Part shown: in pieces, positions 62,244-64,000 of the stretch | How positions within the stretch are numbered: position 1 is the stretch's first letter | Layout of the letters: every line of letters begins with the position of its first letter | Assembly (NCBI RefSeq): GCF_014205255.1 | Contig: NZ_JACHNE010000001.1 | Location: 6,014,001-6,078,000 of the forward strand | Length of the DNA: 64,000 nt | Direction: 5' to 3' | Source: Streptomyces caelestis | GTDB lineage: Bacteria; Actinomycetota; Actinomycetes; Streptomycetales; Streptomycetaceae | Translations under genes and position numbers: made by a program | The notes under the pieces: model-generated | Told to the model about the DNA's origin: nothing | Databases searched by the model: none | What the model saw: only the letters and a program-made list of their open reading frames with translations

Positions 62244-62292
62244 ATCCCGGACCGGACCTGTTCCGTTTCCCTTCCCGGGCCACTCCGGCAGG

Positions 62293-62312
62293 GCCGGGCC
62301 ACCGGGCCCGGC
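62293..62312 (+). terminator. 8-bp GC hairpin after rmdB
   Basis: GCCGGGCC and GGCCCGGC flank the loop ACCG. It lies 50 nt after the rmdB stop, upstream of the gatC promoter region. Confidence 0.65.
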
Positions 62313-62345
62313 GAAACCGTTTCACGGTCACAGCTGCCCGCCCCA

Positions 62346-62351
62346 TAGGAT
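62346..62351 (+). promoter_or_regulatory. Probable -10 box (TAGGAT) for gatC
   Basis: TAGGAT fits the principal-sigma -10 consensus of Streptomyces. TTCACG at 62321-62326 is a possible -35 at 19 bp. Initiation would fall about 62357-62360, inside the 5' arm of the structured element that follows. Confidence 0.55.
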
Positions 62352-62529
62352 TAGGACCTGGCGCCACATTCCCGCCTGCCGTGCGACGCCTGGCACGCAC
62401 GCTCGCCGCGTTGCCGAATCGCCCACGTGGCTGTGCCACGAGGACGCTCCGGCGCCTTGCGATCGCTCGCGCCGGACGCCGCACGGCCCGCCCTCCGGGC
62501 GGACGACGGGAATGTGACGCCAGGTCCTA
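62352..62529 (+). ncRNA. Highly structured 178-nt element in the gatC leader (candidate RNA or miniature inverted-repeat element)
   Basis: Arms 62352-62374 and 62507-62529 pair at 22 of 23 positions (only C64/A17 mismatch by last two digits of 62364/62517). Inside are an 8-bp stem (62378-62385 with 62480-62487), hairpins CGTGGC-TGT-GCCACG (62426-62440), an 8-bp stem 62448-62455 with 62469-62476, and CCGCCC-TCC-GGGCGG (62488-62502). The element ends 38 nt before the gatC start. No open reading frame or known riboswitch motif was recognised. Whether it is RNA or a transposon-derived repeat is open. Confidence 0.6.
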
Positions 62530-62567: not shown

Positions 62568-62864
62568 ATGCCTGGCATCACGCGCGAGGAGGTCGCCCAC
62601 CTCGCCCGGCTGGCGCGTCTGGAGCTGAAGCCCGAAGAGCTCGACCACTTCGCGGGACAGCTGGACGACATCATCGGCGCGGTGGCCCGCGTCAGCGAGG
62701 TCGCCGACCAAGACGTACCGCCGACCTCGCACCCGCTCCCGCTGACGAACGTCATGCGCCCGGACGAGGTCCGTCCCTCGCTCACCCCCGAGCAGGCGCT
62801 CTCCGGAGCCCCCGCCCAGGAGCAGCAGCGTTTCAAGGTGCCGCAGATCCTGGGGGAGGAGTAA
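62568..62864 (+). CDS. gatC: Asp/Glu-tRNA amidotransferase subunit C
   Basis: This is a 98-aa GatC with [32 protein letters not shown] and the tail [10 protein letters not shown]. It clamps GatA and GatB together in the complex that converts Glu-tRNA(Gln) and Asp-tRNA(Asn) to the amides. ATG has GAGGA nine bases upstream. gatA follows after 6 bp. Confidence 0.96.
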
Positions 62865-62870
62865 CCCGCC

Positions 62871-64000
62871 ATGACGGACAGCCCCATCATCAAGCTCACG
62901 GCCGCCGAGACCGCCGCGAAGATCGCCTCCGGCGAGCTCACGGCCGTCGAGGTCACCGAGGCCCACCTCGCCCGGATCGAGGCCGTCGACGAGAAGGTGC
63001 ACGCCTTCCTGCACGTCGACCGCGAGGGCGCGCTCGCCCAGGCCCGTGCCGTCGACGAGAAGCGGGCCAAGGGGGAGAAGCTCGGTCCGCTGGCCGGTGT
63101 TCCCCTGGCGCTCAAGGACATCTTCACCACCGAGGGGATCCCGACGACCGTCGGTTCGAAGATCCTCGAAGGCTGGATCCCGCCGTACGACGCGACCGTC
63201 ACCAAGCGGCTCAAGGCCGCCGACGTGGTCATCCTCGGCAAGACCAACATGGACGAGTTCGCCATGGGGTCCTCCACCGAGAACAGCGCCTACGGGCCGA
63301 CCGGCAACCCCTGGGACCTGACCAGGATCCCCGGCGGCTCCGGCGGCGGTTCCTCCGCCGCGCTCGCCTCCTTCCAGGCCCCGCTCGCCATCGGCACGGA
63401 CACCGGCGGCTCCATCCGCCAGCCCGCCGCCGTCACCGGCACGGTCGGTGTGAAGCCGACGTACGGCGGGGTGTCGCGCTACGGCATGGTCGCCTTCTCC
63501 TCCTCCCTCGACCAGGGCGGCCCCTGCGCCCGCACGGTCCTGGACGCGGCCCTGCTGCACGAGGTGATCGCCGGTCACGACCCGATGGACTCCACGTCGA
63601 TCGACGCCCCGGTCCCGCCGGTCGTCGAGGCCGCCCGCAACGGCAGCGTCGAGGGCATGCGCGTCGGCGTCGTCAAGCAGTTCCGCGGCGAGGGCTACCA
63701 GGCAGGTGTCATCCAGCGGTTCGACGAGTCCGTCGCGCTGCTGAAGGAACTGGGCGCCGAGATCGTCGAGCTGGACTGCCCGTCCTTCGACCTGGCGCTG
63801 TCGGCGTACTACCTGATCGCGCCGTCCGAGTGCTCCTCCAACCTCGCCCGCTTCGACGGCCTGCGCTACGGTCTGCGCGCCGGTGACGACGGCACGCACT
63901 CCGCCGAGGAGGTCACCTCCCTGACCCGCGAGGCCGGCTTCGGCCCCGAGGTCAAGCGCCGCATCATGCTCGGCACGTACGCGCTGAGCTCCGGCTACTA
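62871..64000 (+). CDS. gatA: Asp/Glu-tRNA amidotransferase subunit A, N-terminal part
   Basis: This is the first 376 codons of GatA, an amidase-signature enzyme that releases ammonia from glutamine. The catalytic triad region is visible: K82 in PLALKDIF, the cis-Ser region [14 protein letters not shown] and the nucleophile loop [13 protein letters not shown]. The gene runs off the right edge. ATG follows GGGGGAGGA. The start is 6 bp after the gatC stop, so the two are cotranscribed. Confidence 0.96.

Follow-up and report, generated by a model that had tools for sequence, protein, structure and literature searches.

A probable transposable element between the gatC promoter and start codon of Streptomyces caelestis, and its repeat family with a conserved, strand-specific core

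The window analyzed here, a stretch of 64,000 nucleotides of the Streptomyces caelestis genome, ends with the genes gatC and gatA. The interval between the gatC promoter and its start codon contains an inverted repeat that encloses a structured sequence. The features of this region are the following.

62346 to 62351, plus strand: TAGGAT, likely -10 box of gatC, from its spacing to the ATG in 72 of 110 gatC loci and a presumed consensus
62352 to 62353, no strand: likely TA target duplication, left copy, from the comparison of filled and empty sites
62354 to 62374, plus strand: left terminal inverted repeat (arm), GGACCTGGCGCCACATTCCCG, from arm pairing
62354 to 62527, no strand: probable copy of a miniature inverted-repeat transposable element (MITE), 174 bp, from the empty-site comparison and from relatives dispersed in its own genome and in the genus
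62383 to 62482, minus strand: conserved structured core, RNA-like, with the minus strand as sense strand; part of model R1, from covariation and G.U bias
62488 to 62502, minus strand: side hairpin P2 (CCGCCC-TCC-GGGCGG), adjoining the core
62507 to 62527, minus strand: right terminal inverted repeat (arm), from arm pairing
62528 to 62529, no strand: likely TA target duplication, right copy, from the comparison of filled and empty sites
62568 to 62864, plus strand: gatC, from the list of open reading frames and a match in 295 of 295 genus genomes
62871 to 63998, plus strand: gatA, running off the window, from the list of open reading frames, its name being taken from the original prediction and from its position after gatC

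The inverted repeat is as originally predicted: 22 of 23 arm positions pair between 62352-62374 and 62507-62529, with 132 nt enclosed. The left arm plus TA (62352-62374) reads TAGGACCTGGCGCCACATTCCCG. The ability of this sequence to fold was also confirmed, the plus strand RNA reaching -113.3 kcal/mol (z -7.61) with 0 of 200 shuffles equally stable. The TAGGAT box is located, as had been noticed, directly 5' of the left arm at 62346-62351, and the gatC ATG at 62568. We take this box to be the -10 element of the gatC promoter on the basis of the consensus and not of mapped ends. The proposed start of transcription inside the left arm would follow from the same predicted, unmapped box; the mRNA leader would then measure about 210 nt with the element, compared to about 35 nt in the empty state. 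An Rfam search of the window stretch returned nothing on the element up to E 1. Further upstream, a GC-rich inverted repeat (62288-62317) located 3' of an EAL/GGDEF-like gene may correspond to a terminator hairpin; it gave a sub-threshold Rfam CRISPR-repeat match (24.4 bits versus a gathering score of 39).

Related sequences are widespread. A nucleotide search of the element's own genome identified 21 matched stretches, a count that includes the query and partial pieces; several of these matches have both arms. The pattern TAGGGCGTGTCCGCAAAGTCCCG, when up to 3 mismatches are allowed, occurs 16 times in this genome versus 0 times for the reversed control, and a covariance model of the core gave 13 matches at 12 places. 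The search for arm copies elsewhere in the genome, which had been suggested with the original prediction, therefore reveals dispersed copies, which argues against a cis-regulatory reading. Another core match of the same genome (L381, G000:C1:6100095-6100196, 51.5 bits) lies 22 kb past the window. In the genus, the element was matched in 262 of 295 genomes; 35 plasmid records also contain a match, and none was obtained in the phage records searched. Class-wide, the core model has matches in 51 of 197 genomes and 17 of 90 genera, with at least 20 matches in each of five genomes. The element measures 174 bp at gatC and most copies are 140-220 nt long; in 85 of 109 loci, a copy of 140-230 nt was obtained whose arms match at 20 or more of 24 positions. 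The element contains no gene, the coding potential of the core being judged by eye.

The genomic setting of the other copies was described with crude gene calls. The terminal TAG is the stop codon of a neighboring gene in 18 of 70 other copies, five times at the left end and 13 times at the right end, and the family may thereby have a part in forming mRNA 3' ends. As for orientation relative to neighboring genes, examined as a sign of transcription, no clear bias was found, with 44 genes pointing at the left end and 30 at the right end. Several copies are associated with further sequences. In locus L098 (own genome, about 842,000-844,000), an insertion sequence of about 1.4 kb with ends CTAGTAGTGCTTCGTTA lies directly at the CTAG end of the copy, and the ends of the element seem to act as targets for other insertion sequences. 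An inner hairpin like CTCCCCCAAGCTCTTCGAGCAGGGGG is inserted or substituted in L132, L040-L042, L044-L046 and L048, with variants in L035 and L222; this repeat has the appearance of a small element of its own, nested within the present one. The copies with GTCGTCAAATT arms (L012, L015, L018 and others) contain an outward-reading TTGACGAC that resembles a -35 box and could form hybrid promoters with the flanking DNA.

The gatC leaders were compared at 110 loci. These are the loci with the highest-ranking GatC matches (80 of 462 confirmed, plus 30 of 295 genomes); they are not a random draw and include 11 pairs of identical sequences drawn from two collections. The distance from TAGGAT to ATG is 44-48 nt, i.e. 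a short leader, in 72 of these loci, 52-97 nt in 25 and at least 100 nt in 13, all of which contain the element or a deleted form of it. Eight of the 13 carriers are full-length, the window genome and one genome counted twice being included, and five are internally deleted. The core is mostly gone in five gatC copies (L110, L192, L203, L204 and L205), of which at least four keep both arms recognizable. Other insertions of about 6-50 nt were observed at the same place in 25 of the 110 leaders; many of these leaders belong to one clade, with repeat units like CCGACTTGCC/GCCGATTTGCC and lengths stepping through 58, 71, 73, 83 and 97. The leader insertions of L179 and perhaps L133 resemble decayed copies of the element.

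Filled and empty sites could be aligned at their junctions. The window site reads GGAT-TA-[GGACC...GGTCC]-TA-GGCCC, and among the empty sites GGAT-TA-GGCC is found in L114 (which belongs to the clade of the window genome), L175 and L176, and GGAT-TA-CGCC in L198. Filled and empty junctions of the L114 type thus differ by the element plus TA. The absence of a target duplication reported originally has to be revised: a TA duplication is likely and visible against the empty sites of other species, and it was missed by eye because TA is self-complementary and hidden inside the palindrome. The start of a second copy of the same genome (5,350,863-5,351,041) coincides with the TAG that closes an open reading frame. 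At that site the sister genome G009, 99% identical to the window genome over the 500 nt before it, contains GCGCTAGGGGTGTCC without the element, and it also lacks the element at gatC.

From these observations, the gatC element is very probably a non-autonomous transposable element, a MITE, inserted at a TA between the gatC promoter and its ribosome-binding site. It is short and gene-less, with terminal inverted repeats, a target duplication matched by empty sites and many dispersed copies; the miniature inverted-repeat element, which had been mentioned as the alternative to a regulatory RNA, is the reading that these data favor. This reading is tempered by the target sites. GGATTA was found in only 4 of the 72 short-leader sites (L114, L175, L176 and L198), most of the others reading GGATTG, and the far (right) flank of the second site (5,350,863-5,351,041) is TG, not TA. 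A TA is present at both ends in 3 of 22 gatC copies and in 28 of 70 other copies with well-paired arms, so that the duplication appears to be often mutated among copies.

The distribution of the insertion among hosts was mapped onto a tree of 113 gatC-gatA sequences, a set enriched for carriers since L009-L037 were chosen for a matching element. The element is carried by 26 of the 113 rows and 18 changes are needed, versus a shuffled mean of 23.6; 9 of the 18 gains or losses are forced by well-supported branches. The row of the window genome clusters with one carrier and two non-carriers with 99% local support. This pattern across species suggests that the gatC insertion would be tolerated rather than needed by the host. 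Recombination between species could also move the insertion site.

The family has terminal inverted repeats of the kind found in Streptomyces IS5-type elements, whose transposases would move the element in trans. Transposases of the IS5 type (PF13340) were identified in 120 of 121 genus genomes. An arm type of the own genome is present in 4 of 30 PF13340 loci with 1, 1, 2 and 2 mismatches of 20 (L242, L247, L249 and L250), versus at best 4 mismatches in 30 gatC loci and 6 in 30 shuffles. Among 50 arm strings, a few of which were cut imprecisely, eight match IS5 loci with 0-2 mismatches of 18, and none of the 50 does so in the control loci; two of the eight (L232 and L244) may be chance matches. 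In L247 and L250, two matching ends are located 891 bp apart around a transposase. The IS5-family ends, such as TAGGYCGTGTCCGNAAAGT and TAGGGCCTGTCTGACAAAT, have TA/CTAG at their ends. For copies with TAGGGCGTGTCCGCAAAGT arms, we infer that the helper would be an IS5 transposase of the L247/L250 type. The family ends are therefore matched for several arm types but not for that of the window copy, no insertion sequence with the latter type being found among the IS5 loci searched. From the matching ends, mobilization in trans by IS5-type transposases would be the most likely way in which the element moves.

Other candidate partners were considered. In the own genome, no full insertion sequence with matching ends was found in 9 of 9 PF13359, 30 of 41 PF01609 and 30 of 32 PF13340 loci. 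An autonomous partner in these loci was rejected: they were scanned for matching or TA-anchored ends, and arms of the right type were found only in element copies. A full transposon behind the plasmid matches limited to the right end was also rejected, as the seven annotated regions are all complete or decayed short elements. An IS630/Tc1-type origin, suggested by the TA duplication, was dropped solely on the basis of the IS5-type end matches. The core model was run on 41 transposase loci. In L222 it detected a short element adjoining the transposase and in L250 a weak, partial match located outside the insertion sequence (E 0.003); two further places are at chance level (E 0.56 and 0.94). No full-length core match lies inside the insertion sequence loci searched and the core is thus not part of these insertion sequences.

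In typical MITEs, the ends are kept and the interior is variable. Here, the core is kept while the ends vary, which, together with the lack of an insertion sequence with the window arm type, further tempers the MITE reading. Between the arms lies a conserved structured core, which the family carries with many different arm sequences. The 100-nt core (62383-62482) was found with at least 10 different, still complementary arm types among 25 loci, the arm ends being chosen by best pairing in this comparison, and 25 of 25 loci fold better on the minus strand. In alignment A1, composed of 37 minus-strand cores picked by sequence similarity, pairing holds in 93.6% of the cells and two-sided changes occur in 20 of 42 pairs, a count that 0 of 500 shuffles reach (shuffle mean 8.5; slid controls 6-10). 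Its basal helix contains 192 G.U versus 12 A.C, and the letters around the central internal loop (UCGCAA.GGCG, CAACGC.GCGA) show no or almost no variation. The pairing register of the core was set separately; a consensus fold over full-length copies mispairs it. The consensus fold of the cores reaches -46.4 kcal/mol on the minus strand versus -11.9 on the plus strand, and the window core scores 98.3 bits on the minus strand and 47.6 on the plus strand. In 22 cores picked by the model, 19 of the 23 basal pairs show two-sided changes, selection by a structure model biasing this set. L387-L401 were picked by the structure model, and the G.U:A.C ratio of 100:7 in alignment A2 is biased in the same way; A2 leaves out L391, L400, L393 and some near-duplicates. 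The sense strand gives the better fold in 28 of 29 model-matched loci; the remaining one, L391, was cut wrongly. The adjoining hairpin P2 is swapped for another sequence in many distant copies. No Rfam family was matched at gathering score by other copies or cores, the sole sub-threshold match on the cores searched being mir-431 on L399 (27.1 bits, gathering 70, E 0.52). Covariation of the stems, which had been put forward as the test of a regulatory RNA, is present, but what covaries is a dispersed family, and it does so on the antisense strand with respect to gatC.

The preference for one strand extends to the whole element. The reverse complement of the window element folds at -143.6 kcal/mol (z -11.1), compared to -113.3 on the plus strand. 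Among the copies with well-paired arms, the only ones compared (85 of 109 loci), the minus strand folds better in 85 of 85, with a mean difference of 27.3 kcal/mol and one by only 0.1. This is because most mispairs are A.C when read on the gatC strand, and hence G.U on the other. In an alignment treating both strands alike, the transition mispairs of 72 main-type copies are G.U on the minus strand in 527 cases versus 158 on the plus strand, and 71 of the 72 copies lean the same way. Minus-strand G.U also leads in other copies: by 13:0 and 9:0 in two whose inner module differs, by 9:0 in L216, by 56:15 in eight unsorted copies (L216 included) and by 15:3 in three more. A double-stranded DNA palindrome provides no evident reason for this asymmetry; a folded single strand, RNA above all, has one.

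The evidence leaves evenly poised the proposal that a structured RNA, or a folded single strand of DNA, is what the family primarily consists of, in exchangeable IS5-type ends and under selection on the minus strand, which is compatible with a MITE. The two-sided changes in the sequence-chosen set, the G.U excess of the basal helix, the invariant loop letters and the uniform strand preference argue for it. On the other hand, no clear orientation bias towards neighboring genes accompanies it, and shared ancestry makes the alignment cells dependent on one another. Strand-biased mutation could contribute as well and, with shared ancestry, may explain part of the G.U excess; the two-sided pair changes are harder to attribute to mutation alone. 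Folded single-strand DNA would be an alternative to RNA for the constrained core: the predicted DNA folds reach -80.8 versus -68.8, and such a strand would tolerate G.T as well. A more specific version, which we regard as slightly less likely than not, is that of a class-wide actinomycete family of folded RNA or single-strand DNA cores moving in the ends of many IS5-type transposons, with an own function of the core in transposition or in the host, and antisense to gatC here. The core and its invariant loop would be kept while both ends would be exchanged together to fit whichever helper is present.

Arm pairing could also be maintained by template switching during replication, one arm being corrected from the other, instead of by selection. 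Paired arm changes were indeed found even between gatC copies of related species. As template switching leaves unexplained both the G.U/A.C strand asymmetry and the match of arm types to IS5 ends, we regard it as improbable.

Somewhat less probable still is the exaptation of an ordinary MITE that later acquired a role at gatC, e.g. as a 5' hairpin altering mRNA stability or translation. A location between promoter and start codon is uncommon in this family: of the 63 other copies with both neighbors called (crude gene calls), 5 sit between two genes pointing away from each other. In the core tree, the gatC copies tend to cluster (3 changes versus 10.3 shuffled, weak support), and an old insertion may thus be kept in several species. 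The repeated loss or absence of the element in close relatives speaks against such a role.

A cis-regulatory leader of gatCA, whose plus strand transcript would fold and sense charged tRNA or an amino acid as originally predicted, is very improbable: the -10 box abuts the left arm so that the hairpin would be transcribed, and the arms of 16 gatC copies stay paired despite differing sequences (368 of 393 arm cells Watson-Crick), but this proportion (94%) is hardly better than in dispersed copies (91%), the core is largely deleted in five gatC copies, and most gatC leaders examined lack the element (13 of 110 carry it or a deleted form), whose presence differs between close sister species. Mispairs on the gatC strand are mostly A.C, not G.U, and the conserved fold, optimized on the strand opposite gatC, is on the wrong strand for a gatCA sensor. 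Neither conservation upstream of the gene nor a match to a known RNA family, as expected for a riboswitch or T-box-like element, was observed.

The gatC leader hairpin, read as a transposon insertion, should not be modeled as a conserved riboswitch, which settles most of the gatC case. Such an insertion is commonplace, whereas the combination of exchangeable transposon ends with a conserved, strand-specific core is out of the ordinary. The family is conserved and covaries inside, on one strand, rather than at its ends, which raises the question of why a gene-less parasite keeps an RNA-like core and switches both ends to follow different transposases. No description was found in the open-licence literature on Streptomyces MITEs and repeats and on MITEs generally, and an earlier one may exist elsewhere. 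This abundant repeat family of Streptomyces and other actinomycetes is apparently undescribed.

Several known systems share part of these properties. In integron attC sites and IS200/IS605 ends, one folded strand is favored. The present element resembles them in its favored folded strand and differs from them in its ends and TA duplication, which fit a DDE transposase. With the insertion sequences of the IS5 family (PF13340/DUF4096) it shares the ends and TA/CTAG, whereas these are about 890-970 bp long (one larger pair of ends being 1,672 bp apart) and encode a transposase. From MITEs in general it is distinguished by a conserved core and variable ends, the reverse of the usual arrangement, and by a core that covaries as a folded strand. 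In the features treated in the main text of a MITE review, it agrees with them: both are short, gene-less and dispersed, with terminal inverted repeats, a short target duplication and ends like those of insertion sequences (PMC10969869). This main text contains no occurrence of Streptomyces or actinobacteria (PMC10969869). It describes the Correia/NEMIS elements of Neisseria as inserted next to genes, one of them just downstream of the mtrCDE promoter, and the transcripts bearing them as cut by RNase III at the repeats (PMC10969869). As far as this account goes, both the Correia/NEMIS elements and the present one are found near genes and form hairpins that can be transcribed, in different hosts.
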